Source of the DNA: Fibrobacter sp.
GTDB taxonomy: Bacteria > Fibrobacterota > Fibrobacteria > Fibrobacterales > Fibrobacteraceae
Length of the DNA stretch: 64,000 nt
Direction of reading: 5' to 3'
Assembly: GCA_016285835.1 (NCBI GenBank)
Contig: JAEERM010000002.1
Coordinates: 17,089-81,088 of the forward strand
Part shown: positions 11,430-30,600 of the stretch, piece by piece
How positions within the stretch are numbered: the stretch's first letter is position 1
Layout of the letters: each line of letters begins with the position of its first letter
Notes under the pieces: model-generated
What the model was told of the DNA's origin: nothing
Databases searched by the model: none
The model's input: only the letters and a program-made list of their open reading frames with translations
Translations under genes and position numbers: made by a program

Positions 11430-11438
11430 CTCGTCCCC

Positions 11439-13067: not shown

Positions 13068-16000
13068 CTATTCAAAACAACTGGTTTGTACCCACCACCA
13101 AGCATCACTTGCATCTTGATTTATCCATTCTGGATCATCAGTTCTGTCTGGATTCACTTTATAACACTTTCCACTGGCCATGTTATCAAGCCCACTCTTA
13201 TAACATTTACCATGATAACCACCTTTACCATTTACAAAGTCCACACAAATATTTTGTTGCGCCGGAGCAAATGTCACCTTAAACGTGCACTCCTTGGACA
13301 CCTTCACACCATTCACATCACGGCTGATATTGAATTGATAATCCTTTTCACCAGTACCGCTTTGATCATAGAACGATACATTTCCGGAAGTGTAGCCAGA
13401 CCCACTTTCATATACCGTCGGCCCTTTTTTAATTTTCCATTCGCACTCTCCATCGCATCCACTCACGTTAGGAGAAACCACAATTGGGCTTTCGGGATTC
13501 TGTCCGGTCGTTGGCGAAGGACACGTCAAGGTCAGGTTAACATTGTTCACCGTATGCGTCACCGTACAAGCCGGATTACCATTCAAACTCAGGATGAAAT
13601 CATAGGTTCCATTGGCATATTCACCCAAATGCAAATCGAAATTCAGTGGGGCGTTAGAATTCGCAGCCACATTCTGTTGACCAAGCACATTGCCCAAGAG
13701 ATCAGATCTCGTGAGAGTTGCAGCGACATTCCCCATATTTCCGCCAGAAACAAATGCCGTAAAATGCCCCTGAGGCGTAATCTTACACTCTGATGCAGAC
13801 GCAGGAATAGACTCTATTATTTCAAAGCTACCCGACGTACAGGAACCGTAAACCTTTGTTTTTGTCGCATTATAAACCGTCACCGTATAGGAATAGGTTC
13901 CAGCACTCATCGCTGTCGCCGTATTCAGGCTCGGCGCCCAAGACATGGAGCCTTGAAGGGTCGAGCTATGTGCGTATTCCGTACCATCCGACAGAGTAAG
14001 GTCGTATACGCAGCCTCCAGCAGGGCAATTATTGGCTTCGACAACAACTGCCGGGACACCTCCCCCCTGCACAAAGCTAGTCGTAGGTCCATCAAGCCGG
14101 CAATTTAAGGAAACTGGGCTAAGAGGCATCGATGTCGCAGTACATTCGCTCGTTGGAGGAGTAAGTTCTGTCGCGGCATCATCATCGTACACCGACACCT
14201 TGAAGGAATACTGTTGCGCTTGAGTTCCTTCGTACAATCTATCTTCAAAATTTGGATCATCGATGAGGAATATGCCTTGTGAATTACAGGGGCCAAAATA
14301 AGTCGGTAAGGAAGATTCCGTTAGAGATTCCACCTTGCACTTCTTTGCAATCTGGAACGGGTCAATATTCGTACTTATACGCCACTGTCCTGCCGGAGTA
14401 TAAGTAACATCGTTTTCACCGCAATTCACGCTCAAGGTTGCCGAGCATTGGCTCGTAATGGAATCAATCGTATAAGTGCCGAACCCGCTTCTCAGAATTA
14501 TTTCTTTAACATGTTCCGGATCAAACCCATAACGGGAAGCAAAGTCCTTGTTTTCAAAATCGTTCACTGCGGAGGCCTCTAAATTTACCGCATCGGAGGT
14601 TTTGCCCGAGACATCTTTAAATGTAGCCGTAACCTTAGTCCCCGCGTCCATCGTCACATAGAACATCACTCTCGCATCGCGGAGATTTACTCCACCTTCT
14701 CTATTCAAAACAACTTTGTGCTCTCCGGTAATGCCCGATGTCGTCCCTGCCAAGCGTTCATTCTGGACACAAGTATGCTTTTGGCCCACATAAAACTCAC
14801 CGCAGCCAGCCGTAAACACTTTTCCGCGTTGCATACAATAGACCCTTACAGAGGCATTACGGACCGCTCCATTCAGGCTATCGTGCTGGAAGCCATGATC
14901 TCCTTCGTACTTGAAATAGAAGTTACCCGATCTGAGTTCGAGCGCATCATTCACAAGGCCACTCTCCACATATCCATCGGCTCCAATATTCCCGCCACAA
15001 TACGTTCCATTTATCAAGCCGGCACCAAGCAAACGTTTATATCTACCACTGGGCATATCGCAACCATTATAATAATACGAGATGTCGTCAACACAATCCG
15101 CACCTTTATCCGCGAACCACTTGGAATAACCGATCACAGGGGTCACGTCTTCATTGCGTGGGACCTGACCTGCCATATATTTAGCTGCAAAAGAACAAGT
15201 TATGGTCGGGGTGGCATAGCACTTGTCTTTATACTGTTCAGAGAACCAGCTTACATCGTACACACCAAAATCGGAATCACCCAATTTAAGCCCAACATAA
15301 GCATGTTCATCATCATCCAAGGAGCCACCCATTAAGGCAGAAAGCGCTTTCAAATCAAATTTTGCGACAGCACGCCTAAAACCGGATGCGCCAGGAACAT
15401 TCCCCATAATAAGTAAGCTATCTCTCTTATATATAGTCACATCGAAATTCAACGAGGCCCTAGATTCCCAAGAAAGCCCAGCCCCCGAAACGGAGTCTTT
15501 CAATCGAGCGGACATACAATTTGCCCCCTTTGCATAAGTTTCAGTCATCGAGACCGATGTCAAATAACAGACACGGGCAAACGTTTCCTTTGCTGTCGAA
15601 TTACGTCCAGTTGAATCAATTCCAAAGAAATTCACCGAAACATATTCCGTTCCAGCCCTATTTGACCTAATTACAAGGCCACTATTCAAGGATGTTTTGT
15701 CCACTTTTGTAGGGCTGGTTATATCCGTCCAAAGTTGAATATTATATGTACCTTCAATACCTGCATCCACAGTATTCATCATCATCGCAACATTTCCGTC
15801 ATCAGGCCGTTTTAAATATTTATGCGAGAAAATTTCCGGCCGAGCACGTCCACCACCATTACTATTTACAACGATCCAGTTGGCATTTTCATAGCGAAGG
15901 TCGTTATTTTTGCATGGCATCGACCCTTGACAATAATCTATACAATCAGGATCTTTGTTGTTTTTACACCAAATATCCGTTTTATTGAATTCCGCATAGA

Positions 16001-19000
16001 AGCAATGCGGATCTCTCTCATTGAACACGGCCGTATAGGACACATCATCACTCATTACAAACCGTACTGTATCCGAGGAGTTTTCAGAATGGTTCCCTGA
16101 GCCATCCGAAATAGACCAACGAGCAAATCGATCATCACCACCTTCTTTTGTGGTCAAACGAACATTTTGGCCCGAATAGACAATTATATCGCACCCTACC
16201 GAACTCGAACAAGTTTTCTTTTTGGGGTGAGAGAATGTTGTATCTTCCGGTTCGAAAATATCTATGAGAACATCACTGTCATCGGCGTTTTTTAGCGCAA
16301 CATGGAGCATGTAGTGTAAGCGTTTGAGCGAGGCATACAGGATATACCCTCCAGCGTTAGTTGCATCATCCTTTGGCGCAGTCACATAATTGAATTTTTC
16401 AGGATTATACATGACACAAGTTCGTCTGTCAAACGAGCCCTCTATAAAACCGTATTTTACAGATTCACCTAAACCCGCATCACATTCCCACTTTTCATTT
16501 GCAACTTTATTATCACACCCATGGTATCGAGGAAGATCAACCCATTCCAATGGCGTTGGCATCGGGCAATTTTCCAAGGAATCGGCGGCCAGTTTGTACT
16601 TAGGATTTTTTTCACATTCTTCCTCATATTCACGGCAGTAATCAGCAATCGAGCCTCGATGTATCGTTGCAACACCACGACGGTTAAAGGCCTTTATTAC
16701 AGAACCCCCACCAACAATACAGCCTTCTGGGTTTTGCAAAGTAAACCGAACCGTACCAGGCAAAGCCGATGGACTTACAGACACATTAAATATCGGATAC
16801 GTGGTTTCTACACTGGAGTATGGTTTTTCGACGGCATAATACTGGGAGCCATCCGCAGCTTGTTTCCAGGTAATATTAGAATTATCGGATTTCCTCACAT
16901 CCCAACCGGTGGGCAAGTCCGACATTCCGATACGTATCTTAAAATCGCCCGTTAATGACGAGGGTTTTACAACCAGTTTGACTTCACCGGAACCCGATTG
17001 CCCCACTTGGAAGAATTCATTTGCGGCACCTGCAAAATGGACCATGGGAGTCGTCGTAGAGTCGCCCTCTAGAAGTTGCACATAGAAATCGGATTTAAGC
17101 GTTCCACCTTGCGGATTATTCCGAGTGAAAGAACAATTATAGACATTCGTATTCAAGTTAGCACTGACAATTTTGTCTTTAACCTTACCACTTGTAAGAT
17201 CATTTGCACGCCCGTCACACGAAAGAATTCCACCTTGTTTCGGCGCTCCCGTACGCGGAATCACCGTTATATAATCCGACAGTTGACCAGGAGAACTGGC
17301 ATTCAGGTAAACAACTCTCGGCATAACCTGGATGGTGGGCCCAGGATTAACCACATTCATTTCATCAATTTTATCAGGACTCTTATATTCAGACTCTACG
17401 GTAACATACAGCTGAGGGCCCATCGCAACAAAATCCGGATCGTACGGACCTTCCACAAAGCCAACCGACGACGAGGAGACCAACGCTGCCGATGACGAAC
17501 TTGTAGGAGAATCGCCGCAATAAGCACTATCGGCTACGGGGCAAACAATTCCACTTTGCGCAATATCGTCGACAACATCTTCGTCGTACATCATGGTGAC
17601 CGTACCATTTATATCCGGAATTTTTGCACAGCTTGACGCCGTTGCATATACAGAACCGGCCCAAGTACACTGCCCCAGGAAGCCCTTTATATCAGCCCTT
17701 GTAAAAAAGAAATAATTTCGAGTTGACTTGTCATTTTCACAGTTGATATGAACATCAGCCCCATCTTTCAAATACACAAAAACACGGGAATTCGGCGTTG
17801 TTTTGGGGAAACGGCCATGGTTTGCATTCGGCCCACCAAATTTAGTGTCATAGATAAACAAGAATTTTCCATTCAAAGACGGGGCGCTAGCATCGTTAAC
17901 ACCTCCAGCAGCATTCTCGTTAAAAGTCAATTTAAGAACCAGATAATCATTAAACAAGTATCTCTTTCTCTTATCCTTATCGTTGTATAGCTTTTCGTAA
18001 CAGCTATTCATTTTTGTTGTTTTATCATTTGAAATATGATTAAGGTGATTGCAGTCTGGAATACCCGACTTCGACGCAGTATCGGCGTATTTCTCAAATT
18101 TTTTCCACCCTGTCATAAGAATATCGCTAACATAATACGGCGAATTGCTACAAGATTTCCCTGTTTGTGATTTCGGTTTCCAAATAGCATCACAGTAATT
18201 TTTTACAGATTTGCCACATTGGAAAGACGGATTTTCTGGAAGCGTTCCGCGCACAATTCCCCTTGACGCAAATCCTGCGTAACCCAAGTCCTTATTTCCA
18301 CCCTTAATTTGATAATATTTTTTGAATTTTTTCCCGTTTACAGTCTCTTCATTACAATTATCCACGCCAGGAACCACATTAACTTGGCATGCGGCAGCAT
18401 CTTTTACATACACTGTATCTTTGTCACTTGTTCCAAGTTGCCTATGGCTAAGTCCGGAAATCCCGTTGTTTGTATTTAAGCCATATCCACGGCCATTCTT
18501 AAACGATGTCGGCATCCAGACATGATGCGCTACAATAAAATCATGGTTTGCTGACTCCGATTCAAACTGGATGGAAGCAGAATTCCCTAGGCACAGATTC
18601 CCTCCTATCGAATGTTGGAAAGCACTTAAATTCGGACGCATCACGCCCTCTAAGTACATATTTCCACCCACAGAAAAACCGGGATCGCCAATATTGCCGA
18701 TGGTCAAGTTGCCCGCAAAATAGGCATTTTCTCCAATATTTCCAACAAACTTATTCGAACCAGATCCAGCCAGGCCACCCACAAAAAGATTTTTGGTCCA
18801 TATTCCGTTATTGGGATCCAAATTGCCCCCCACGCAAGTCGTTCCGCCAGCCTTAATCTTGTTACCGCTCAACGTGACTTTACCCGTAACAACAAAGTCT
18901 CCATCCAGATTAATCGGGTTCGACCCATTCGCCATACCCCAGTCCCCATTGATAAGGGCAGATGTGACTCCATGCCCACCAGCAAAGGATGTAGAGCCAC

Positions 19001-19505
19001 CAAAATAAGCATAATGGTAATCAAGGTGAAATTCTTCTTCGGGAACTGGTTTCAGGACTCTATACAAGCCCGAGACATTCAAGATTGCAGTTTCGGTGTA
19101 CGAAGCAGCATTATTGTGAGCATAACCGGTAGATACAATCTTTAACTTATAAGTAGCACTTGTCGTCGGAGCATCAGCCCCTACGAGAGCCACAGAAAAG
19201 GACTGCCCCGATTTGGCCATGGGCTTAAGAAAATCATCCAACGATATCGGATTCCTGTTTGCGACATCTTCGCTAAAATACTGCTGCAAAATGGACCCAA
19301 CGTCATTGGCGTGGTACATCATCCATGCACGTGCAGCCTCGACACCGGCTTGAGACGATGTACGAGCCTCATTGACCAACATTCTGTCTGCAGAAGAAAA
19401 ACCTTCGGAGGACAGCCACTTATACGTCGCCGTACCGGCGATAGTCGCCACCAGCATAAACATCAATACAGCAAAGAGAGAAACGCCTTTTTGCGACTTG
19501 AACAT
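13068..19505 (-). CDS. Giant PilX/GspK-like minor pilin, putative tip adhesin II
   Basis: The protein is 2145 residues from the ATG at 19505, which has a strong AAAGGAGG site; the longer track start lacks one. The prepilin leader MFKSQKG|VSLFAVLMFMLVATIAG lacks Glu5 (Ala there). The order of parts matches giant I: pilin-like region (1-150), GN-rich solenoid-like region (about 165-330), MPRVVYLNASSPGQLSDY segment, Cys-rich module from HCFYAEF (about 1165) to CSFAAKYMAG (about 1435), then Ig-like C-terminal repeats. Two CxGxC-type motifs are seen (CPAGGC and CDGEC). A Ser-rich patch SSSSAALVSSSS interrupts the middle. It ends VQTSCFE. It is the last gene of operon II, ten bases after pilW II. 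Extracellular location follows from the signal and Cys content; ligand unknown. Confidence 0.8.
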   Translation of the reverse strand: MFKSQKGVSLFAVLMFMLVATIAGTATYKWLSSEGFSSADRMLVNEARTSSQAGVEAARAWMMYHANDVGSILQQYFSEDVANRNPISLDDFLKPMAKSGQSFSVALVGADAPTTSATYKLKIVSTGYAHNNAASYTETAILNVSGLYRVLKPVPEEEFHLDYHYAYFGGSTSFAGGHGVTSALINGDWGMANGSNPINLDGDFVVTGKVTLSGNKIKAGGTTCVGGNLDPNNGIWTKNLFVGGLAGSGSNKFVGNIGENAYFAGNLTIGNIGDPGFSVGGNMYLEGVMRPNLSAFQHSIGGNLCLGNSASIQFESESANHDFIVAHHVWMPTSFKNGRGYGLNTNNGISGLSHRQLGTSDKDTVYVKDAAACQVNVVPGVDNCNEETVNGKKFKKYYQIKGGNKDLGYAGFASRGIVRGTLPENPSFQCGKSVKNYCDAIWKPKSQTGKSCSNSPYYVSDILMTGWKKFEKYADTASKSGIPDCNHLNHISNDKTTKMNSCYEKLYNDKDKRKRYLFNDYLVLKLTFNENAAGGVNDASAPSLNGKFLFIYDTKFGGPNANHGRFPKTTPNSRVFVYLKDGADVHINCENDKSTRNYFFFTRADIKGFLGQCTWAGSVYATASSCAKIPDINGTVTMMYDEDVVDDIAQSGIVCPVADSAYCGDSPTSSSSAALVSSSSVGFVEGPYDPDFVAMGPQLYVTVESEYKSPDKIDEMNVVNPGPTIQVMPRVVYLNASSPGQLSDYITVIPRTGAPKQGGILSCDGRANDLTSGKVKDKIVSANLNTNVYNCSFTRNNPQGGTLKSDFYVQLLEGDSTTTPMVHFAGAANEFFQVGQSGSGEVKLVVKPSSLTGDFKIRIGMSDLPTGWDVRKSDNSNITWKQAADGSQYYAVEKPYSSVETTYPIFNVSVSPSALPGTVRFTLQNPEGCIVGGGSVIKAFNRRGVATIHRGSIADYCREYEEECEKNPKYKLAADSLENCPMPTPLEWVDLPRYHGCDNKVANEKWECDAGLGESVKYGFIEGSFDRRTCVMYNPEKFNYVTAPKDDATNAGGYILYASLKRLHYMLHVALKNADDSDVLIDIFEPEDTTFSHPKKKTCSSSVGCDIIVYSGQNVRLTTKEGGDDRFARWSISDGSGNHSENSSDTVRFVMSDDVSYTAVFNERDPHCFYAEFNKTDIWCKNNKDPDCIDYCQGSMPCKNNDLRYENANWIVVNSNGGGRARPEIFSHKYLKRPDDGNVAMMMNTVDAGIEGTYNIQLWTDITSPTKVDKTSLNSGLVIRSNRAGTEYVSVNFFGIDSTGRNSTAKETFARVCYLTSVSMTETYAKGANCMSARLKDSVSGAGLSWESRASLNFDVTIYKRDSLLIMGNVPGASGFRRAVAKFDLKALSALMGGSLDDDEHAYVGLKLGDSDFGVYDVSWFSEQYKDKCYATPTITCSFAAKYMAGQVPRNEDVTPVIGYSKWFADKGADCVDDISYYYNGCDMPSGRYKRLLGAGLINGTYCGGNIGADGYVESGLVNDALELRSGNFYFKYEGDHGFQHDSLNGAVRNASVRVYCMQRGKVFTAGCGEFYVGQKHTCVQNERLAGTTSGITGEHKVVLNREGGVNLRDARVMFYVTMDAGTKVTATFKDVSGKTSDAVNLEASAVNDFENKDFASRYGFDPEHVKEIILRSGFGTYTIDSITSQCSATLSVNCGENDVTYTPAGQWRISTNIDPFQIAKKCKVESLTESSLPTYFGPCNSQGIFLIDDPNFEDRLYEGTQAQQYSFKVSVYDDDAATELTPPTSECTATSMPLSPVSLNCRLDGPTTSFVQGGGVPAVVVEANNCPAGGCVYDLTLSDGTEYAHSSTLQGSMSWAPSLNTATAMSAGTYSYTVTVYNATKTKVYGSCTSGSFEIIESIPASASECKITPQGHFTAFVSGGNMGNVAATLTRSDLLGNVLGQQNVAANSNAPLNFDLHLGEYANGTYDFILSLNGNPACTVTHTVNNVNLTLTCPSPTTGQNPESPIVVSPNVSGCDGECEWKIKKGPTVYESGSGYTSGNVSFYDQSGTGEKDYQFNISRDVNGVKVSKECTFKVTFAPAQQNICVDFVNGKGGYHGKCYKSGLDNMASGKCYKVNPDRTDDPEWINQDASDAWWWVQTSCFE

Positions 19506-19515
19506 AACGCCTCCT

Positions 19516-20844
19516 TTATAACTCCGTCGTTCCGTTACTAGGAACCGGGACAACAACGGAAGTCTCTCCACTCACGTGATTTTCCATTAGTTTTAAATCC
19601 AATTTAAAAGCACGAACATTCGCTTTGTCTAGCGTGTCTGGAACATACCCTTGAACAAACTTGTAATTTCTGTCGGAAATTTTTTTCAGACGCAAATCGG
19701 CAAACGAGAATGTGCCTGAACCGACGGTTGGCGAAAAAACGGCCATCCTAAACACAATACATGCATTACTAAAATTATTCCGCGGGACAAAGCGCATCAC
19801 ATGTTCATCCGGAGCTTCGGACGTCTGCGGAGGAAAAATCATCAAATCATCAACATCATCAGAAGGGATGGATTCGGCATTCGAAACCATCCTAAACCCA
19901 ATAGACAAGTGATCCATCCCAGGTCGGAACATGCGGGCATCGTCTCTTACGTTCAACGGAGTTCTGAACCTAAGTTCGTAAGTTAGATCCTTGCTAAAAT
20001 TAAACTTTTCACAATCTTTCCAATCATCGGTATTTTCTCCCGTTTTGCCAACATACACCTCATGAGATTTTATATCAACCCCGTGGTAGTTGCCATCCTC
20101 GCGGAAATTCGAAGAAAATCCGGACATTGTAAATGATGTCGCTCCATAGTCTGGAATCACATTTATTTTGACCACATGAGTCGCAGCGTGTTCACGGGAA
20201 ATCAGACGGAATTGCCCCGCATCGGCACTCGAAGGAAACAACACCGAATCGGCAACACTTTTGAGAAGTCCCGGTGTCGCAGGAGTTATCACAAACTTGG
20301 AAACGCCCGAAGCCATGGTGACTGTTCTTGGCTTGATTTCCGGACAACTCGCTGTATCTTCAGTCCCTCGAATCGTACGGCACGAACGTTTCAAAATGCC
20401 ATCATTAGTGGTATACCAAGAAATTTCTTCAACACGCTTAAATCTACCTACACTATCCACAACCTTACGGAAAACAAGACTATCTTTATCCGCCCCTCTT
20501 TTTGTGCTATTCGGATTATTAACATTCGTATCGCCTCGGAAATAATCAAACGACGAGAAATCGTTTCTGGCCACATTCATGAAAACTTCAGGCCTTACGT
20601 CAAATCCGGATCTAAGTTCATCTGTAAATTCCGGGTCTATAACCGTTTTCGCACCCATCTGGGCAACATCGTCCCGGAAAAGATTTCCCAGATTTTCAGC
20701 TTTTTGGTTCGCCTTAATCATACTTTCGGAAACAATGCGCATCTTTGTACTATCGCTAAACGCATGCCCAGCAATAATGACAACGACACCGACAATAGCC
20801 AGGTAGACCATTAATTCAATCATTGTAAAACCGCGCTTATTCAT
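19516..20844 (-). CDS. PilW/GspJ-like minor pilin II
   Basis: The minor prepilin is 443 residues from the ATG at 20844, which overlaps the TGA of pilV II in an ATGA. The leader MNKRG|FTMIELMVYLAIVGVVVIIAG has Glu5. The ectodomain carries PGMDHLSIGFRM and the terminal VVPVPSNG motif shared with the other two PilW-like proteins. Members of this family join the V/I and X/K subunits into the tip complex that primes pilus assembly. Translational coupling to pilV II and the short gap to the giant indicate a single operon and probably one complex. The ectodomain is far from the usual PilW length and probably adds a surface domain. Confidence 0.83.
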   Translation of the reverse strand: MNKRGFTMIELMVYLAIVGVVVIIAGHAFSDSTKMRIVSESMIKANQKAENLGNLFRDDVAQMGAKTVIDPEFTDELRSGFDVRPEVFMNVARNDFSSFDYFRGDTNVNNPNSTKRGADKDSLVFRKVVDSVGRFKRVEEISWYTTNDGILKRSCRTIRGTEDTASCPEIKPRTVTMASGVSKFVITPATPGLLKSVADSVLFPSSADAGQFRLISREHAATHVVKINVIPDYGATSFTMSGFSSNFREDGNYHGVDIKSHEVYVGKTGENTDDWKDCEKFNFSKDLTYELRFRTPLNVRDDARMFRPGMDHLSIGFRMVSNAESIPSDDVDDLMIFPPQTSEAPDEHVMRFVPRNNFSNACIVFRMAVFSPTVGSGTFSFADLRLKKISDRNYKFVQGYVPDTLDKANVRAFKLDLKLMENHVSGETSVVVPVPSNGTTEL

Positions 20845-21341
20845 CGTATAACCCCCGAAACGCTGACGCTCTGGATAGACCCCTTGAACCGCCATGAAAC
20901 ATCGACCTTAACATTCTTCGCATAAACATGCTTTACAGAATCAATCAAGGATGTATCTTTTGAAAAATAAATGTTGTCAGGCATTACCGTAATTTTCGTG
21001 AAATATTTCACCTCAGAAACAACACAATCTTGATTCTGGTTATTACACCGCTCCCAAGTTCGCACGTAGTCCGGATTACCGTCATAGTCCGGCATTTTAG
21101 CGATGGTTTCGTCGTCACGTGCAGATTCGATGGCAGCAGCCCCGACCGCCTGCAGCGAATCGAGCACCAGCTGAGCCACCTCGACAGCGCCATCACGCCC
21201 GCGAATGCGCTGCAAAGTCTGCCGGTTCCCCAACTGGAGCTGCATCACGGCAAGATACAGGAATCCAAGGACAGCAGCAGAAACCAGCACCTCAACGATG
21301 CCGAAGCCCTTCCTTCTTTTAAGAGCCTTACCTAGCAACAT
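20841..21341 (-). CDS. PilV/GspI-like minor pilin II
   Basis: The 166-residue minor prepilin has leader LKRRKG|FGIVEVLVSAAVLGFLYLAV, with the Gly cleavage site and Glu at mature position 5. The following helix RIRGRDGAVEVAQ is almost the same as in PilV III (37016-36564). The C-terminus VSWRFKGSIQSVSVSGVIR is also conserved between the two. An AGAGG ribosome site precedes the ATG. It is the first gene of operon II. The hairpin at 21391-21422 lies in its leader. It is probably the I-type subunit of a GspI-J-K-like tip complex. Confidence 0.85.
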   Translation of the reverse strand: MLLGKALKRRKGFGIVEVLVSAAVLGFLYLAVMQLQLGNRQTLQRIRGRDGAVEVAQLVLDSLQAVGAAAIESARDDETIAKMPDYDGNPDYVRTWERCNNQNQDCVVSEVKYFTKITVMPDNIYFSKDTSLIDSVKHVYAKNVKVDVSWRFKGSIQSVSVSGVIR

Positions 21342-21544: not shown

Positions 21545-23824
21545 CTAATTAATGTAGGGACGGACCTGCTTGAACACCATCCGGCGGTCCTCCCCCATGA
21601 CCTTGAACTCGATATCGAGGGCGAGTGCATCGGCATTTTTCTTGTAAAGCGAGGCAAAGTGGTCCTGGATCATCTTGACCGTCCGGTAGAGCACGTAAAT
21701 TTCGCCGCTATTGAGGATTAGCGAGTCGGGGCAGAGCGTAGAATGTTGCAAGAGCACACTCTGCACGCCGCGCTGCGGTGGTGGCGAGGGGATGATGGAA
21801 ATGATTTCCGGGAGTTCGCCGCCTTCGGGATTGGTGACGGATGTTTCGCCAACCTGGATGTTCGCATAGATACCCGCGACCGAGTAGTCCGCGATGTTCT
21901 GCGTGATGATGACGCCATTTGCGACTTCGTCCGGGTAGGATTCATGCACGGCCACGGCCATCTGCACCGAGAAGTGGTCGATGTTCCAGAGGGAACGCTC
22001 CTCGAAAACCTTGAAACTCCATACAGAGGCCCACACCTTGCGAATCTCGTCGGACGGGAGGTCCTTTTCGCGCGTGGTGGCCTTGACGGACTTGTAGAGG
22101 CCCGCTCCGTTGAAGTCGCTCAAGTCTTCGGAATTGGTGCTGGAACGCAGGCGCACGCCAGCTTCGCCATAAAGCCCGCGCACCTTGGCATCGAGAGCTT
22201 CGCCAAAAGAAGTTTCGACGGGGATGTGCTTGAACATGTAGCGGATGTTGTCGAGCATCGCTTCGCGGAGGCGCGTATTGGCGGCAAAGTCTTCGCGGGA
22301 AACCAAAGACGTAATGTAGTTGCGGAGAGATGTTCCCTTCGAAAAGCTCAGGGAACTTGTTGAGGACGCTTCGACAGGCTCAGCGGCCTTTGATTCAGCG
22401 TCCAAAACCTGCAGGGCGCCAGCACAGGCGGTTTTTACCTGGGTACATATTTCCGAAGAGCGGCCCTCGGTCCCGCAGTCAGCAAAGGAGCGTTCGCAAA
22501 GTTCCCCGGTCACCTGGGCATAATCCATAAAGTGGCTGTAATGGTAGAACGGCACAGCGAACCCGTCGGGCGAGTTGTCGGGGAGCAGTTTGTGGAGTTC
22601 CGCAAGGTTCGCGGCCTTCACGCCCACCGATTTCGCCGAATTGAAATCGAGGTCCGCGAAGTCAATGAATCCTGTATCCGACAAATCATAGGAGAGCGTC
22701 ACCGGATCGCGCACGTTCTTGTTCCAGAAAGTTTTTGCCTCGTCAAGAGCGGCCTCGACCACCGTATAGGAATTTGACTTGACTTCCAACTTCACCAACT
22801 TTCCGCAAAGGGCGAGCAGGCTATCGGGAAGTTCGTTGCCGTTAAACGCGATGTTCGGAGTCTTGCGGGCCTTCGCGGCTAGGTTCACGTGCGAAAGCGG
22901 AGTCTGCGCATCTTTGCTGATTGTCGCCGCGACAAGCGGGATTTCGGCGGGGAGCGTTTCGAGAATCAGGATGTCGTGCGAAGAGACAATCGCCGTATCG
23001 AGTTCCGCGGCAGTCAGTTTGCGAAGCGTTCCGTATGCAATCCCGGAGTTCATAATCAAGAAGGGTATATCGCCAAACAACTGGGCATGTGTATAGACAG
23101 GGATGTTCGCCGCCTTGAACTCAGCGGCATATTCGGCGGCAGCCTCCTCGGCATTTGTCCCCGCAGGCATATAGAACAGGCAGTTTTTGGGCGCTCCCGG
23201 AGAAAGGAACAGCATACGGGATTCTATCAGCTTGTATACCGCAGCCACTTGCTCGGGCGTAATGAGATCGGTCGGGAAGAACGTCAGCGCAATCATGGAA
23301 TCGACAGAAGCGTAGTACGCAAGCGTCCCGGCAACCGTGTTCTTCTCTGTCGTGAAATACGTCTCGCTTTCGAACTCAAACACAGTACGGGTATCGTGGA
23401 GAATTATTTCCGCAAAATCGTAATGTATCGGGTACGCCTTCGTGTTCATGAAATGAACTTCAGGGGTATCCGTATCGAAACCGGTAATGACAAATTTCAC
23501 CAAGTAGCTCGAGCCCATTTCTGTCTTCGACGTGTAGGCTAACTTACGGAAAGCGGAGTAGCCGTCTTCTTTGTAGAAGCCTGTGTACTCGTTCTCGTTC
23601 TGGATAAAAACAGGAAGTGTATCAGTTTTGATAGAATCCGACCGCGTCGTGTCTGTATGGGTTGTGTCTTTCTTGGTGGTATCTGTACTCGTCGTGTCCG
23701 GCACAATGATATCGGGATCGTCAGGACCGCTCGGATCCCTGGAAGAATCATCATTTGAGCACGCCCAAAACGTCGCCACTAAAACCGACAACAAGAAATA
23801 GGCAAGTACAGACAAACGCATCAT
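21545..23824 (-). CDS. Lipoprotein with dikinase-like phosphohistidine and PEP/pyruvate-ATP-binding domains
   Basis: This 759-residue protein has a lipoprotein signal (hydrophobic segment ending FWAC, Cys at about 22), then a Thr/Asp-rich linker of about 35 residues. Near residue 312 is PLSHVNLAAKARKTPNIAF, resembling the phosphohistidine swivelling domain of glucan-water dikinases and PEP synthases, with its His. After it, at about 555-580, comes VRLRSSTNSEDLSDFNGAG, the signature of the PEP/pyruvate-binding ATP-grasp domain. KVWASVWSFKVFEER and a late VFKQVRPYI follow. The order (His domain first) is that of glucan-water dikinase, not of PEP synthase. An ATP-dependent enzyme outside the cytoplasm would be odd, so its reaction is open. 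It follows the poly-Ser lipoprotein gene by nine bases. Confidence 0.75.
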   Translation of the reverse strand: MMRLSVLAYFLLSVLVATFWACSNDDSSRDPSGPDDPDIIVPDTTSTDTTKKDTTHTDTTRSDSIKTDTLPVFIQNENEYTGFYKEDGYSAFRKLAYTSKTEMGSSYLVKFVITGFDTDTPEVHFMNTKAYPIHYDFAEIILHDTRTVFEFESETYFTTEKNTVAGTLAYYASVDSMIALTFFPTDLITPEQVAAVYKLIESRMLFLSPGAPKNCLFYMPAGTNAEEAAAEYAAEFKAANIPVYTHAQLFGDIPFLIMNSGIAYGTLRKLTAAELDTAIVSSHDILILETLPAEIPLVAATISKDAQTPLSHVNLAAKARKTPNIAFNGNELPDSLLALCGKLVKLEVKSNSYTVVEAALDEAKTFWNKNVRDPVTLSYDLSDTGFIDFADLDFNSAKSVGVKAANLAELHKLLPDNSPDGFAVPFYHYSHFMDYAQVTGELCERSFADCGTEGRSSEICTQVKTACAGALQVLDAESKAAEPVEASSTSSLSFSKGTSLRNYITSLVSREDFAANTRLREAMLDNIRYMFKHIPVETSFGEALDAKVRGLYGEAGVRLRSSTNSEDLSDFNGAGLYKSVKATTREKDLPSDEIRKVWASVWSFKVFEERSLWNIDHFSVQMAVAVHESYPDEVANGVIITQNIADYSVAGIYANIQVGETSVTNPEGGELPEIISIIPSPPPQRGVQSVLLQHSTLCPDSLILNSGEIYVLYRTVKMIQDHFASLYKKNADALALDIEFKVMGEDRRMVFKQVRPYIN

Positions 23825-23833
23825 AGGAACAGT

Positions 23834-24823
23834 TTATTCTTGATCCATGTCCAGTCGGAAATCGCCATTACAGAGCTCAAACGTGTCGGTAAAATCACCG
23901 AACGAGCCGTCTTCCAGGCTAGCAAAACGACACACGACCGGCAGCGAACGCACTTCGCTGAGGTCTTCGTCAAAGGTCTTGCAACCATCTTCGATAAGCG
24001 TCGTACCATCTGACTCGAAAACTCTTATGCAATCCATTTCTTGGCAACTACGGCCGCCCCAGCCATACGAAGAATGGAAGTATTCGTAAACCTTGCCATC
24101 GTAAGCGAAGCGGAACTTGTCGTTGTGGTGGTTGCCACCCCATTCATAGCTCAAGTTTTTCGGGGTCGAATATTTACCGTTCACGTACAACACGGCCGTG
24201 TCCACACTGATTTCTGGATTCATTCCCATACCTACCTTCTGGCAATCAGTCGGCGAGCCCTGCACATAAATAAAGCCTTCCAAATCGGCATACTTGAAAG
24301 TGCAAATCCAATCTTGCTGGTCAAAATCCATGTCCCACTTTATAGATTCTTTTCCAATTTTTTCTTCAAAACTGCATTGATGGACAGCCGCTTTCGGAGT
24401 TCGAGTTTTGAAAATTTTCATAGGGTCCGTCAGGACAACTTTTGCAGAACTGGAGGAGTTTTTCACAACCGAGGAACTGGAAGATTTCGAAGACTTCTTG
24501 GACGAGCTGGAAGAACTATTCGATTTTGTTGAGCTAGAGGAACTATTGGATTTTTTCGAACTAGAGGAGTGTTTTGATTTCCCCGAGCTAGAAGATTCTT
24601 CGACAGCTGAGGAACTAGATGAGCGCGCTTCCTTTTTGCTTGAAGACGAAACCTTAGCTTTGCCAGAGGAACTTTTACCTTTCTCGAAGCTGGAGCTGGT
24701 TTCAGCAATTTCATCCGAGCTAGAAGAAGTTTCGGGGTCAGCACTAATTGCACTGGAAGAATCGTCACCGCAAGCGACGAAGAAAAGCAAAGAGAAAACA
24801 GGTAATAAATTGAGAATCTTCAT
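23834..24823 (-). CDS. Poly-serine-linker lipoprotein of unknown function
   Basis: Starting at the ATG at 24823 gives 329 residues; the track ORF begins 69 codons earlier without support. The signal MKILNLLPVFSLLFFVACGD has a lipobox with Cys at 18. Residues about 25-130 are a low-complexity linker of Ser runs broken by Lys and Glu, a style common in Fibrobacter secreted proteins. The C-terminal 190 residues form a Cys- and aromatic-rich domain (GWGGRSCQEMDCIRVFESDG) that I do not recognise. A TATATT box lies exactly six bases before the ATG. It is co-directional with and nine bases before the dikinase-like lipoprotein, so the two probably form an operon and may act together at the cell surface. 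Confidence 0.75.
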   Translation of the reverse strand: MKILNLLPVFSLLFFVACGDDSSSAISADPETSSSSDEIAETSSSFEKGKSSSGKAKVSSSSKKEARSSSSSAVEESSSSGKSKHSSSSKKSNSSSSSTKSNSSSSSSKKSSKSSSSSVVKNSSSSAKVVLTDPMKIFKTRTPKAAVHQCSFEEKIGKESIKWDMDFDQQDWICTFKYADLEGFIYVQGSPTDCQKVGMGMNPEISVDTAVLYVNGKYSTPKNLSYEWGGNHHNDKFRFAYDGKVYEYFHSSYGWGGRSCQEMDCIRVFESDGTTLIEDGCKTFDEDLSEVRSLPVVCRFASLEDGSFGDFTDTFELCNGDFRLDMDQE

Positions 24824-24837: not shown

Positions 24838-24925
24838 ATGTTTTGGTAAAATTTTTCATTTTTTGGGGACAAAAGTGTCTGTTAAAACGTCTATAGGATA
24901 TGAACCCTCTATATGGAGTAAACAG

Positions 24926-25921
24926 ATGGGAAATACAGATCCAAAGACAAAAAAAGACGAAGCATCCGAACCAAAACCACACGACGCTTTTTTCAGATGG
25001 CTTTTTTCCGACGTCGGGCGGCTCCGGCACCTGCTGGAGCTTTCCGGCAAGGTGAACAGGGACATAGGCGAGTTCATCTCAGAAGTGGATCTTGACACGC
25101 TCGTACGCATCCCCGATTCGTATTCCGAAGTCGAAGAAACCGGAGAAGCCGACCTCGCCTTCCGCGTGGAAGTCGCCTCGGGGGCGCCGCTGCTCGTGGG
25201 CATCCTCGTGGAACACAAGTCCGGGCGCGATTCCGGCACGCTTGACCAGATTGCGCGATACGTGAATTCCGTGATGAAGATATACAGCGAGCACAGGGCT
25301 TTCAGCGGGCTCCCCACGATGGCCATCATCTTCTACAACGGGCGCGAGAACTGGAACCCGCTCGGGAGCATCGAGGACAAATATCCATCGTGTTTCCGCG
25401 GGAGGATTCTCCCGTTCGCCTGCTCGTTCGTGAACATGATCGATATACCCGACAGCGACTGCCTCACCTGCGAGGACACGGCCGCGGGAATGGGCATCGT
25501 AGCAATGAAGTACGCCTACGACAAGGAAAACCTGCTCAGAGTACTACCTTTATTCAAAAAGGCGCTGCAGCGAATGCCGCACGACGAGGCTGCTTGCCTA
25601 TTGGCGAAGATTAGTATATATTTGAAGGAGTACGTCACCAGGGACGTGCTGAAGGAGCTTGACATGGCATTCGTAAGCATCGGACAGAAATACGGTTTCG
25701 TGAGTGCCGGAGACGAATTCCGCAGGGAACTCGCGGAAGCGCGCGCGGAAGCGCAAGCGAAGGCGAAAGCTGAGGAACAGGCACGGGCTGAATTTGAAAG
25801 GAACCAGGATCGTGCAGACACATTGGCCATTTTACGGAAAATGGGTTTGTCCGAAAAAAAGATTACCGAGGCTTGCGCCGAACTTGACGCACTTCAGAAG
25901 AAGCGGCGTAGACAGGCGTAA
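24926..25921 (+). CDS. Rpn/YhgA-family recombination-promoting nuclease (transposase_31-like)
   Basis: The protein is 331 residues from the ATG at 24926, which has a GGAG site eight bases upstream; the track start at 24863 is a TTG. The family cleaves DNA and promotes RecA-independent recombination in E. coli. PHDAFFRWLFSD near the start is the family hallmark. EADLAFRV followed by ILVEHKSG provides the Asp and Glu-X-Lys of a PD-(D/E)XK nuclease core. The C-terminal third is helical with an Ala/Glu/Lys-rich region and ends KKRRRQA. Codons 217 onward are duplicated downstream (25987-26178). It is the only complete member of this subtype here, so it is probably active. Confidence 0.85.
   Translation: MGNTDPKTKKDEASEPKPHDAFFRWLFSDVGRLRHLLELSGKVNRDIGEFISEVDLDTLVRIPDSYSEVEETGEADLAFRVEVASGAPLLVGILVEHKSGRDSGTLDQIARYVNSVMKIYSEHRAFSGLPTMAIIFYNGRENWNPLGSIEDKYPSCFRGRILPFACSFVNMIDIPDSDCLTCEDTAAGMGIVAMKYAYDKENLLRVLPLFKKALQRMPHDEAACLLAKISIYLKEYVTRDVLKELDMAFVSIGQKYGFVSAGDEFRRELAEARAEAQAKAKAEEQARAEFERNQDRADTLAILRKMGLSEKKITEACAELDALQKKRRRQA
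25574..25765 (+). repeat. 192-bp tandem repeat, copy 1 (inside Rpn gene)
   Basis: This is nearly identical to 25987-26178 (offset 413 bp). It covers residues 217-280 of the Rpn-family gene. Confidence 0.85.
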
Positions 25922-25940
25922 GCCAAATACTTTTATACGA
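25913..25940 (+). repeat. 28-bp direct repeat, copy 1
   Basis: The sequence starting CAGGCGTAAGCCAAATACTT is repeated exactly at 26344-26371. In both cases it spans the stop region of a nuclease reading frame and is followed by a hairpin. The hairpin here (CGGCTCCTGAAAGGGGGTCG then TTTTC) is degenerate. Confidence 0.85.
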
Positions 25941-25986
25941 GCGGCTCCTGAAAGGGGGTCGTTTTCTCACAACAAAAGTACCTAAA

Positions 25987-26178
25987 ATGCCGCCCGCCAA
26001 CGCAGCTTGCCTATTGGCGAAGATTAGTATATATTTGAAGGAGTACGTCACCAGGGACGTGCTGAAGGAGCTTGACATGGCATTCGTAAGCATCGGACAG
26101 AAATACGGTTTCGTGAGTGCCGGAGACGAATTCCGCAGGGAAATCGCGGAAGCGCGCGCGGAAGCACAAGCGAAGGCG
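25987..26178 (+). repeat. 192-bp tandem repeat, copy 2
   Basis: This is the partner of 25574-25765, with only a few substitutions. Confidence 0.85.
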
Positions 26179-26334
26179 CAGAAGCAAATTGCCAACGCAC
26201 GCTCCGATGAGCAAGCGAAAGCAGAAGAAAACAAACTAGCAACAGCCCAGAAAATGGTCCGCGACGGAGTCATTTCCGTTGAAAATGCAATCTCCTACTT
26301 TGGGTATTCCAAGGAACAAATCCTTGCGAAATAG
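25987..26334 (+). pseudogene. Partial duplicate of the Rpn-family gene (C-terminal part)
   Basis: This 115-codon frame begins at an ATG equivalent to codon 217 of the upstream gene. It keeps the same sequence for about 64 residues (ISIYLKEYVTRDVLKEL and following), then diverges into a different tail, EENKLATAQKMVRDG, ending QILAK. The nuclease core is missing and no ribosome site is evident. It lies between two exact copies of a 28-bp sequence plus hairpin, so it arose by tandem duplication with loss of the 5' part. The different tail resembles C-termini of other Rpn relatives, hinting at recombination between family members. Confidence 0.7.
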
Positions 26335-26343
26335 CGGCGCGAG

Positions 26344-26371
26344 CAGGCGTAAGCCAAATACTTTTATACGA
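26344..26371 (+). repeat. 28-bp direct repeat, copy 2
   Basis: This is an exact copy of 25913-25940, immediately before the intact terminator at 26372-26397. Confidence 0.85.
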
Positions 26372-26397
26372 ACGGCTCCCGACGGGGAGCCGTTTTT
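26372..26397 (+). terminator. Intrinsic terminator of plus-strand Rpn cluster
   Basis: The hairpin ACGGCTCCC-GACG-GGGAGCCGT is followed by TTTTT. It converges with the minus-strand terminator at 26404-26433. Confidence 0.85.
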
Positions 26398-26403
26398 GTT
26401 TAT

Positions 26404-26433
26404 ACAAAAAGGCCCGCGGCTAGCGCGAAACCT
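26404..26433 (-). terminator. Terminator of PD-(D/E)XK gene, copy of operon III terminator
   Basis: On the minus strand a CGCGCTAGCCGCGGGCC hairpin region is followed by TTTTTGT. The first 24 bases on the plus strand (ACAAAAAGGCCCGCGGCTAG and on) are identical to 27542-27565, which terminates giant-pilin operon III. Confidence 0.75.
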
Positions 26434-26462
26434 AGAGTCAATAACATTACTTTTGTAGACAC

Positions 26463-27431
26463 TTATTCGATAGCCGCCGCCCCGGCAATGATCTCTTCGG
26501 AAACGCCCATAGAACGGAGGTAATCTATCCGTTTAGCTGTGCGGTCGGAGGCCTTCTTCTCAGCCTCCGCTTTGCCACGGGATTCGCCAACAATCTCGCC
26601 TTCGGCTCTTGCCTTGATTACTTTCCCGGCCATCCAGCTCTCATAATCTTCCTTCGTTGTCATGTTCAGCTCCTGTGCCTGTAAAAGTTCATCATCGGCG
26701 TTCTCCACACGGATGCGTTCCAACGCATCCTCGACAATCCCGCTGCCGAAATCGGGAAGTTCGCCGCCATCCCTCGCGTGATTCAGCAGATAGAGCCACA
26801 CATCAGCGGCACAATCCACCTCGTCGGCGGACTTGGTGAAGTTGGGGACGCTCAAGAAAATATACCTATTTTTTCCCGAAAGAGGTACAGTCTTGCCCTC
26901 CCTAACGGCATGCCTGCTGTAGAGCGCCCATTCGTCGCGGTACTCGCCCTTGGCGTCGGGCAGGTCAAAATCGCAGATCCAGATGGAAATTGTTTCCGGT
27001 AGCAAGTAGCGACGATACCTCTGTTGCTCCGGAGTCAGTGCCTTGAACTCTGGCGAGATTTCCATCTCCTTGCGACCCTTGATAACGAGGAACGCCTTGT
27101 AAAGTATGGTGCGGTCTACGAAGAAGTCGTTTTCCAATCGCTGCATCTCTACATTGAGAAAACGCCCACTACCCGTGGTCGCAAAGATATCGAAGACGAC
27201 CTTCGACCGCTGCGGGACACGGAAAAGAACGGCCTTATCGAAACTGAACCGTAGCGTCTTGATTTTGTCGTCTCCCTCAAGGTCAAGCACACCATCGAGA
27301 AAATCCCTCAACGCATCCTCGCTGTCGAAAAGTTCTTTGAATGCCGGGTCGTATGTCGGATCTAGATAAACCTTCCCCCTAAACGCCTCGGGAATAGGTC
27401 TGTTGCGAGAAACCTTGCGAGTCTTATTCAT
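26463..27431 (-). CDS. PD-(D/E)XK nuclease-family transposase (Rpn-related)
   Basis: The protein is 322 residues from the ATG at 27431, preceded by AGAGG; the track ORF runs 38 codons further without support. The fold belongs to the PD-(D/E)XK nuclease-family transposases related to Rpn. DPTYDPAFKELF is the N-terminal hallmark. VVFDIFATTG followed by FLNVEMQRLEN gives the Asp and the Glu-X-Gln variant of the catalytic core. FFVDRTILYKA is also typical. The helical C-terminus ends YLRSMGVSEEIIAGAAAIE, the same end as the remnant at 4557-4871. The gene is bracketed by direct copies of one hairpin (26404 and 27542). It appears intact. Confidence 0.85.
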   Translation of the reverse strand: MNKTRKVSRNRPIPEAFRGKVYLDPTYDPAFKELFDSEDALRDFLDGVLDLEGDDKIKTLRFSFDKAVLFRVPQRSKVVFDIFATTGSGRFLNVEMQRLENDFFVDRTILYKAFLVIKGRKEMEISPEFKALTPEQQRYRRYLLPETISIWICDFDLPDAKGEYRDEWALYSRHAVREGKTVPLSGKNRYIFLSVPNFTKSADEVDCAADVWLYLLNHARDGGELPDFGSGIVEDALERIRVENADDELLQAQELNMTTKEDYESWMAGKVIKARAEGEIVGESRGKAEAEKKASDRTAKRIDYLRSMGVSEEIIAGAAAIE

Positions 27432-27541
27432 TTTCTGACCTCTTTCGCGGGGACGCGCCCGCTGCGCAGGCAGGACTTGTTCCCGCCTGTACCTATAGAC
27501 ATATTTGCCGACTCTTTTTTCCAGAAAAAGATGTTTACAAG

Positions 27542-27571
27542 ACAAAAAGGCCCGCGGCTAGCGCGGGACCT
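27542..27571 (-). terminator. Terminator of giant-pilin operon III
   Basis: GGTCCCGCG-N-CGCGGGCC followed by TTTTTGTC on the minus strand lies 30 bases after the stop codon of giant pilin III. Twenty-four bases are repeated exactly at 26404-26427 on the far side of the PD-(D/E)XK gene. Confidence 0.8.
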
Positions 27572-27601: not shown

Positions 27602-30600
27602 TTAGTAGTCGTTCGGGCAGGGGTACGTTTTACTTGGATTATCATCAAAATAGACTCTCCATGTAGATTCTCCACTAACATTTTCTTTTGTAAAGGTATT
27701 CGTTATATAATTACCACTATATTTATTTTGTCCATGATATGTGAAATAACAACCTTGTTTACAGCCGGTAGCTTGAACAACGAGAGAATACGATGTATAC
27801 ATTTTACATTTACCATACCAATCTTTATCACATGTCCTCTTGCAAGTTAAAGATTTCGGCATTTGACCACTAACACAATTAACAGCAGTACTTACATCAT
27901 TTTCCGCAAAATAAACTTTATAGCCAGAAGAACTATGAACACTTTGTACATCCGCTATTGTTATATCATAAGGGCCATGAGAAGAGCTTCCTTGATACTT
28001 ATATGTACAGCCACTTTCACACCCTACAGCTTGAACATAAATTTGTTTTCCATCCTGAATGCAAGACAATGATTTTTTCTTTACATTGAGATCCGCAGAA
28101 CAAGTCTTTCCACTGCCATTCAGCGTAAACACATACGTTCCCGCCGTTGCAGAAGTCGCCTTGAAATTGTTACTGCCATACGTAGAGAATTCTTCGTCAA
28201 GCTTGTTCAAGCCAGAGCCACTTGCAAAAACGGTATTTCCCTTCTTAATCGTCCAGGATTCATTCATTGCAGAGACCCCTGTAGCAATAAACTTGACATA
28301 GCCTTCATTATTGCTATACTCATCCTTTTCGAAACGACAGCTGCCTATACCGCTGGGAGTCATTCCTTCGTCTGTTATTTCAATCGTACAAGCAGCGGCA
28401 TCGCTACCGTTGAGGTACAGAGCATACGTACCGCCACCGGTAATTTCCTTCTCTATTGTTCCATTGGACTGGACTTCTCCAGAGTAGATTTCACCATTAT
28501 TTTTCTTGAGAACCCAAGGCCACTTGCAACTACCATCGGAGCAAGTACCGAAGGTCGCCGTGAACATTGCCTTTTGGTCTGAATAAAGTTTAGTCACATT
28601 GTTCCCGATATCGCAAGATGCCGGAATAGTTCCCATGACTGGGATTTTATCGGAGCATTCATCGATCTTCTTGCCATTGACCGTCAAGTCAAATGTTTCA
28701 ACCTTGGACACTGTAAATTCAACGTCCGTTGCACCATTTTCCAAGAGGTTCGTCACGCCAGAATATCCAACACCTGTCGGAGATCTTAATTCATAGCTAC
28801 AACCAGCACAATTTGTCGTGAACGTGTATTTAGCGAGTCCACCCCATTCGGTATTACCCGTAAATCCACAGTTCCCTACACTCAAAGCAGCGTTCGTATA
28901 TGTCACATTAAAGTCGCAATTAAACAAGCCTTGAGAGAACTCATCATCTGCCGAGACTGTGAAGGTGTAGGTTTTCGTTCCCACGGATCCCGGATCCGAG
29001 AATGTCAAGAGAGTATTGCCATCGTAGCCAGAGCCCTCGGCAAGGGTATTCCCGTTCCTCGTCACAGACCACTTACAAGAATTATCTTCGCAGCCGCCAA
29101 TCGCAGGCTGGAAACTGACCAACGCAGAAGCATCCTGGTTCTGGATGGACGGGCAACTGGAATTGAGGTTATTCATTGCTCGAACTTTCCATTCCTTAGT
29201 GCAGTAATTACCACCATACAGCAGCAACGAAACAAGGTAGTTGCATACACCCATGTTGCATTGGAACATTTCATGAGGAAGCGCGTACTTAAATTCGGCC
29301 ACAGATTGCTTAACACCCTCATTGAAGAAGACAGAGTCCGCCGTCGCAATCCTTTGGTTTTCCACTTCCAAAACATGGCCAAGATAGTCGGTATAGACAA
29401 TCCTTGCGGAGCCGGCAATGCTACCCTTCCAATAGCCTCCATCATCAAAAGCGATAGATGCAGCAAAGAATTCATTGCCATTTTCATCGATTTCAATTCT
29501 GGGATCGTTACAAACGCCCTTTTCTGGTTCTGGAGCTACGTAGAACTTATTGCTATCGATCGGGCAGCTATGTCCCATTACATCGAGCTGATATTCATAA
29601 GTACCCTTATTCAACTTATTGTGTTCGGTATTAATCGCTGTACAGCTTCCACCCGGACAGTTCTGGAATTGGTCACCTGCAACGAGGCTACCTTCCTCCG
29701 GCTCCAGCCCAAATTCGGCAGGATACGTAACCGTGTACGGGCACCCTCCCGAAGGACAGTTCTCAATACTGAATTTAAACAGAGGTATACCAAAGCCCTG
29801 TTCCACAGTATCAGCCGAAAGCGAACAATGCACTTTGAAGGGCTCATATGTTTTTGTGGGAGTTTCACATTCATCCAAAACTTGTCCATGAATATCCCTT
29901 GCTACAACCTTGAACGCGTAATTACGCTGAACAAACTGGCCATAAACGTTGTCTTGATCATAGAACTGGACAAAATCTTCGCCACAGGCCTGCGGTTCGG
30001 GAACATCTCCACTGTGGACTTCGAAACCATCTTCCAACGGAATAATTTCACAAGTTTCCGCACGTTCAGGATGAACAACGCTGGCGGACACAGTCCATTT
30101 TTTCGTCAGGAAGTCATACGTGCCATCCTTACAAGTAACGCTAAATGCATAACGGCACTTGCTTTGCACGTGATTCACCCGGAACACCTGCGAAACATTC
30201 TTGAAAAGGATTCCGCGTAGATTCTGGGGATTGAATCCTGCTGCATCCGATACAGATGCAACATCAATGGAATATTCCTTTTCACCAACCTTTTCCACAT
30301 TCAAATCGCTAATGTTGCTATCAACATCTACTAAATACGCATAAATTGTAGACGTTATGGCATCCTCTAGCGTAAACGAAAGCGAGGCATCGCGCACATT
30401 ATAGATGGTATCTAGTTCAATAAAGCAGCTACCATCCGTGGCATAACAATTTTCTGGGTATGAAAGCATTTCGGAGAAAGATTCATCGCACTGTTTGTAC
30501 TCACCCACAATAAAGTCGCCGCAACTAGCATCATACATGTGCGTATTGTTATTATTGGCATCTGCCGCACAAGTTACAATGACAGAAGCTTCATTGACTC

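Follow-up and report, generated by a model that had tools for sequence, protein, structure and literature searches.

The window, a stretch of 64,000 nucleotides of Fibrobacter sp. DNA, encodes a 759-amino acid protein that we read, with a probability of about one half, as a dikinase-superfamily phosphotransferase anchored by lipid outside the cytoplasm, which would relay phosphate through a swivelling histidine domain. On the strength of its sequence and a structural model the protein is likely to be catalytically competent, and it may serve most probably in the acquisition of phosphate, nucleotides or small molecules. ATP is not normally present outside cells or in the periplasm and, to our knowledge, the characterised dikinases of this superfamily all work where ATP is made; our literature searches returned no paper describing an exported dikinase. 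The gene has one copy in its own genome (protein search), and its product is the only PPDK_N match in this assembly, which is 86% complete. Its parts, and the gene directly upstream, are:

21545..23824, reverse strand: exported dikinase-like lipoprotein, 759 amino acids, ATG start (predicted from sequence)
23762..23824, reverse strand: signal peptide, residues 1-21, MMRLSVLAYFLLSVLVATFWA followed by C; relatives have signal peptides and a lipobox Cys too
23759..23761, reverse strand: lipobox Cys22
23600..23758, reverse strand: variable linker of the TTDTTKK type, residues 23-75, poorly conserved and Ser-rich in relatives
23060..23599, reverse strand: N-terminal domain, residues 76-255, with the invariant His134; shared with Streptomyces plasmid homologues and absent from glucan, water dikinases (GWDs)
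22730..23059, reverse strand: phosphohistidine swivel domain, residues 256-365; matches the swivel domain of rifampin phosphotransferase (RPH) and, weakly, GWD1_pHisD
22889..22891, reverse strand: His312, the predicted phosphorylated His, in every aligned member
21551..22675, reverse strand: ATP-grasp nucleotide-binding domain, residues 384-758; matches PPDK_N, a PEP synthase profile and the RPH structure
22616..22618, reverse strand: Lys403, equivalent of RPH Lys22 (triphosphate), by alignment and PDB profile mapping
22145..22147, reverse strand: Arg560, equivalent of RPH Arg117 (alpha-phosphate), by alignment and PDB profile mapping
22088..22090, reverse strand: Ser579, equivalent of RPH Thr136 (alpha-phosphate), in 27 of 28 rows, the remaining row being cut short
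21560..21610, reverse strand: Glu739, Gln753 and Arg755 (DIEF...KQVRP), cluster of Mg and phosphate ligands
22340..22519, reverse strand: genus-specific insertion, hypervariable at its tip, with the conserved Cys 443, 450, 460 and 467; every aligned Fibrobacter member has it and other genera do not
23834..24823, reverse strand: partner lipoprotein, 329 amino acids; its stop codon precedes the ATG of the dikinase-like gene by 9 bases

All motifs listed by the first-pass annotation (the lipobox FWAC with Cys22, SHVNLAAKAR with His312, VRLRSSTNSEDL and KVWASVWS) are found at their place in the 759-residue ORF, and its reading that the His domain precedes the ATP domain is correct. PPDK_N (E 1.2e-17, residues 398-649) is the sole Pfam family detected in the protein and is matched in all 34 family members. 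When the family profile was compared with the PDB, PEP synthase (8a8e) was matched with an E-value of 1.4e-22, and in the structure comparison RPH was matched (E 1.7e-16). The AlphaFold2 model (mean pLDDT 86, pTM 0.82) resembles as a whole RPH, PEP synthase and PPDK (Foldseek), and its phosphohistidine domain superimposes on the swivel domain of RPH (about 3.5 A, 111-113 columns). In a PEP-utilizers search of the own genome this phosphohistidine domain was not recognised, the match being to another gene only. In the model the N-terminal domain has pLDDT values that mostly exceed 80; it had no clear fold match in the structure search, and its sequence matched no Pfam family. It is probably the acceptor-binding domain. 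A viral origin was rejected: a search of viral contigs identified no relatives of the family, and there was no viral fold match at E <= 0.001.

An ATP-grasp domain (PPDK_N) with ligands of the Lys22/Arg117 type and a swivel domain with a catalytic-type His, both features of the dikinase superfamily, are present in one protein. The PDB profile alignment equates RPH Lys22 with Lys403, Arg117 with Arg560 and Thr136 with Ser579; RPH His825 corresponds to His312 and RPH Glu297, by motif, to Glu739. In RPH, activity is lost with Lys22Ala; the Arg117Ala and Thr136Val mutants no longer carry out transfer but retain ATP pyrophosphatase activity, and Glu297Ala is still active (PMC4844700). Since the residues match RPH sites proven important by mutation, nucleotide chemistry is to be expected, short of proof; the conserved Glu739 is no proof of catalysis, as the corresponding RPH mutant is active. 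The likeness to RPH and to small-molecule dikinases such as HpeHI includes the ATP-grasp domain, the swivelling phosphohistidine domain and equivalents of the Lys, Arg, Thr/Ser, Glu and His residues. The differences are a permutation (ATP-grasp, acceptor domain and His domain in RPH; candidate acceptor domain, His domain and ATP-grasp in the window protein), an N-terminal domain unrelated in sequence to RPH or HpeHI and the predicted export. RPH and HpeHI are cytoplasmic.

Of 168 Fibrobacterota genomes searched with a profile of the N-terminal and phosphohistidine domains, 36 have the family. Protein searches of the same 168 genomes identified close relatives within the genus, with about 61-95% identity over their length, and full-length relatives near 30% identity in other genera; relatives from outside the phylum were sampled through plasmid, viral-contig and PDB collections. 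The gene is accessory: its distribution is patchy and many genomes of the genus are without it. In an alignment of 35 proteins, Cys22, His134, His312, Asn314, Lys403, Arg558, Arg560, the SSTNxED motif, Gln753 and Arg755 are invariant in the lipoprotein rows that cover them, and Glu739 is replaced by Asp in one relative (L059). Wherever the sequence covers them, key residues (the Cys, His312 and the equivalents of RPH Lys22, Arg117, Thr136 and Glu297) are retained across 33 relatives, down to about 28-30% identity, with Ser at the position of RPH Thr136 and the one Asp for Glu. Judged from these sequences, recurrence across genomes with unvarying key residues is far beyond chance. Purifying selection is evident from synonymous changes that greatly outnumber amino acid changes; the excess is greatest in the ATP domain, where dN/dS is about 0.03-0.1. 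A distant relative of 1058 residues (L060, G153:C302, 5239-8409) has a Sec-like signal and the His-before-ATP order, and several of its key positions are changed.

Retention of the ATP-binding residues had been proposed as a check, and the ligands are kept across the family; the loss that was to refute the first reading is not seen. A pseudo-enzyme created by residue loss was therefore rejected, the catalytic-type residues being kept in the alignment. It had also been suggested that the fold may be reused for binding; the protein would then hold a nucleotide or other ligand outside the cell and have no catalytic activity. That ATP is not expected in the periplasm would fit such a role. We regard this as quite unlikely, because distant relatives retain the two half-sites, His312 and the ATP ligands, under strong purifying selection.

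The dikinase-like protein is predicted to be a lipoprotein with a signal peptide and a lipobox Cys, and the earlier lipoprotein claim thus holds as a prediction: Cys22 is present in 33 of the 33 lipoprotein rows that reach the position (the window included; a 34th row stops earlier, at a contig end). In the Fibrobacter insertion, four further cysteines are spaced C-x6-C-x9-C-x6-C, a pattern that the alignment shows to be absent from other genera and that would suit an oxidising, extracytoplasmic compartment. It is the invariance of the lipobox Cys, together with the four cysteines conserved in the genus, that argues for export. A short repeat, TGAGCCTGTCGAAG, lies within the hypervariable tip of the insertion (window positions 22369-22382) and has three copies in the genome assembly.

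The lipobox FWAC is atypical, and no signal peptide is visible in the relatives found on Streptomyces plasmids; both would be consistent with a cytoplasmic protein in which the lipobox is a false reading. This is very improbable, given that the Cys stands behind a hydrophobic stretch in each of the 33 rows, that the linkers are variable as in exported lipoproteins, that Cys pairs are conserved and that the operon partner is likewise a predicted lipoprotein.

The first-pass annotation had likened the protein to starch dikinases. This comparison is correct in part: like plant GWD1 and PWD, the protein has its phosphohistidine domain ahead of the ATP domain, and an LSHV motif. The match to GWD1_pHisD (PF22973) is weak, with an E-value of 0.25 for the window protein; at E-values up to 1, 11 of the 34 members match, 0.0012 being the best value, and no match passes the cut-off. 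The family phosphohistidine profile also matches a GWD1-like protein of the same phylum (G153, L063:9513-12704) with an E-value of 5.8e-7 in a set of five proteins and, taken with the weak GWD1_pHisD matches, this indicates that the His domains are related. Beyond this the likeness was overstated. In the window protein no carbohydrate-binding module or GWD N-terminal Ig-like domain was found, no family member matched a Pfam family for GWD N-terminal Ig-like or carbohydrate-binding domains, and the N-terminal domain it has instead is unrelated; the GWD1-like protein of the phylum, in contrast, carries PF23166 and matches GWD1_pHisD strongly. The order of motifs within the ATP-grasp domain is RSSTNSED then VWAS, as in PEP synthase and RPH, and is reversed (permuted) in the GWD1-like protein, with VWAS then R-S-D-S-N-G-E-D. 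The domain and motif order of the window protein presumably agrees with that of PWD. Strict membership in the GWDs was rejected on the absent N-terminal domains and the different ATP-grasp motif order. PEP synthase and PPDK share the ATP-grasp domain (PPDK_N) with the window protein but differ by the reverse domain order, the predicted export and the phosphohistidine domain, which is not recognised as PEP-utilizers; Pfam detected no PEP/pyruvate domain in family members.

Nor is the placing of His before ATP, although present as described, peculiar to starch dikinases, as it is found also in Streptomyces plasmid proteins in which no signal peptide is visible and which have the same N-terminal domain. 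These proteins (WP_142270066.1 and WP_331760287.1, named 'PEP/pyruvate-binding domain-containing protein') are the nearest full-length relatives found outside Fibrobacterota among the collections sampled, and have the same three domains over their full length (N-terminal domain 1.5e-11, phosphohistidine domain 1.6e-17, ATP-grasp about 1e-26; about 23% identity). They differ in having no visible signal peptide and in being flanked by an ATP-grasp gene and an MFS transporter gene, and a three-domain architecture that recurs between such genes is not specific to glucans. The arrangement of the two plasmid loci (L092 and L093: ATP-grasp gene, relative, MFS transporter gene) is suggestive of a biosynthetic cluster. 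In Fibrobacterota, locus L063 (G153:C15) has two GWD-type proteins (5842-9300 and 9513-12704) beside genes that by sequence are starch synthase-, GH57- and GH13-like: one has the plant GWD1 set of Ig_N_CWD1, GWD1_pHisD and PPDK_N with no visible signal peptide, and the other joins a xylose-isomerase-like barrel to the phosphohistidine and ATP-grasp domains. The two are possible bacterial glucan dikinases.

A GWD-like enzyme acting outside the cell, where it would phosphorylate polysaccharide of plants or bacteria and so loosen it for hydrolysis, would explain the resemblance to GWD1_pHisD and the domain order. One group of Fibrobacter has GH10 xylanase genes running divergently from the dikinase operon, which allows for a role with polysaccharides. 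Given the missing GWD domains, the ATP-grasp motif order and the recurrence of the architecture on Streptomyces plasmids, we consider this reading improbable, slightly more so than mere binding. In most of the loci L068-L073 a near-perfect palindrome, CTATATGCTACAAGTGTAGCATATAG, lies upstream of the operon, between it and divergent GH10 xylanase genes; from its sequence it looks like an operator.

Wherever upstream sequence is available in Fibrobacter (19 loci, with the window and near-duplicate strains counted), the partner lipoprotein is encoded directly upstream on the same strand. It matched no Pfam family and, presumably co-transcribed, probably acts as a binding or scaffolding partner. 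Outside the genus, 10 of 15 loci have an unrelated protein of about 300 residues at the upstream position, seven of them from one family and three from another; homology among the partner lipoproteins of different genera was rejected, as hhalign detected none.

Directly downstream, on the same strand, three genomes have a secreted phosphatase that bears the signature of class A acid phosphatases (gaps of 19, 19 and 70 bases), and the phosphatase gene is within about 5 kb in two further genomes, of 16 with a full-length copy. The acid phosphatase has one clear full-length copy in most of the 20 genomes searched, and the binomial probability of its linkage by chance is 3e-8 if all cases are counted and about 1e-4 with related arrangements collapsed. 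The genes that come after the dikinase-like gene encode DUF47 and a Pho4 phosphate transporter in L056, the phosphate-selective porin Porin_O_P in L044, an inorganic pyrophosphatase in L078 and a CitMHS-type transporter in L080; the neighbour in L058, similar to the L044 porin, had no Pfam match. The window itself has pilin genes downstream and no phosphate-linked neighbours, and in other lineages the neighbours of the dikinase-like gene are xylanases, CotH or LTD genes instead of phosphate genes. CotH is present near two loci (L050 and L058) and LTD genes near three; the linkage to CotH kinases is suggestive only, since CotH is frequent in these genomes. The phosphate theme was spotted post hoc and is a lead more than a result. 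Still, the context points to phosphate over glucans: for the phosphorylation or binding of glucans, as first proposed, we found nothing specific, and the genes that recur in linkage encode the acid phosphatase, the phosphate transporter and the phosphate-selective porin.

The same neighbours (phosphatase, Pho4/DUF47 and Porin_O_P) would fit an ecto-nucleotidase with water as the final acceptor, which would convert extracellular ATP to AMP and two Pi; the linked acid phosphatase would complete the reaction and feed the uptake of phosphate and nucleoside. In keeping with this, RPH has an ATP pyrophosphatase partial reaction (PMC4844700). We hold this for the less probable course by a good measure, as the conserved N-terminal domain with its invariant His134 suggests a true second substrate and the phosphate neighbours occur in some lineages only.

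In the phosphotransferase reading that we prefer, the ATP-grasp domain would bind nucleotide outside the cytoplasm, possibly supplied by lysed neighbours in the rumen, and pass a phosphoryl group to His312; the swivel domain would then deliver this group to an acceptor bound in the N-terminal domain, with release of AMP and Pi. The likeliest role would be to acquire phosphate, nucleotides or a phosphorylatable small molecule alongside the secreted acid phosphatase. The Km of RPH for ATP is 8 uM (PMC4844700), and with so low a value scarce extracellular ATP need not exclude activity. That exported, lipid-anchored ATP-dependent phosphotransferases form a phylum-wide class using the nucleotides of lysed neighbours is a more tentative proposal, plausible but short of even odds. 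If it is true, a histidine-relay kinase would operate in a compartment thought to be without ATP. An exported family that keeps every known ATP and His residue would use either extracellular nucleotides or another donor, and both options would alter the picture of the phosphate chemistry that takes place at the surface of major fibre degraders among the bacteria.

On either side of the operon, the window encodes very large proteins of 2167 and 2546 amino acids with pilin-like N-termini (13068-21341 and 27602-35242), and two smaller proteins beside the 2167-amino acid protein match the N_methyl pilin motif. Positions 24863-27545 encode proteins of the PD-(D/E)XK transposase family, with a PDDEXK_2 match at 26463-27545 and a duplicated fragment at 25987-26334.
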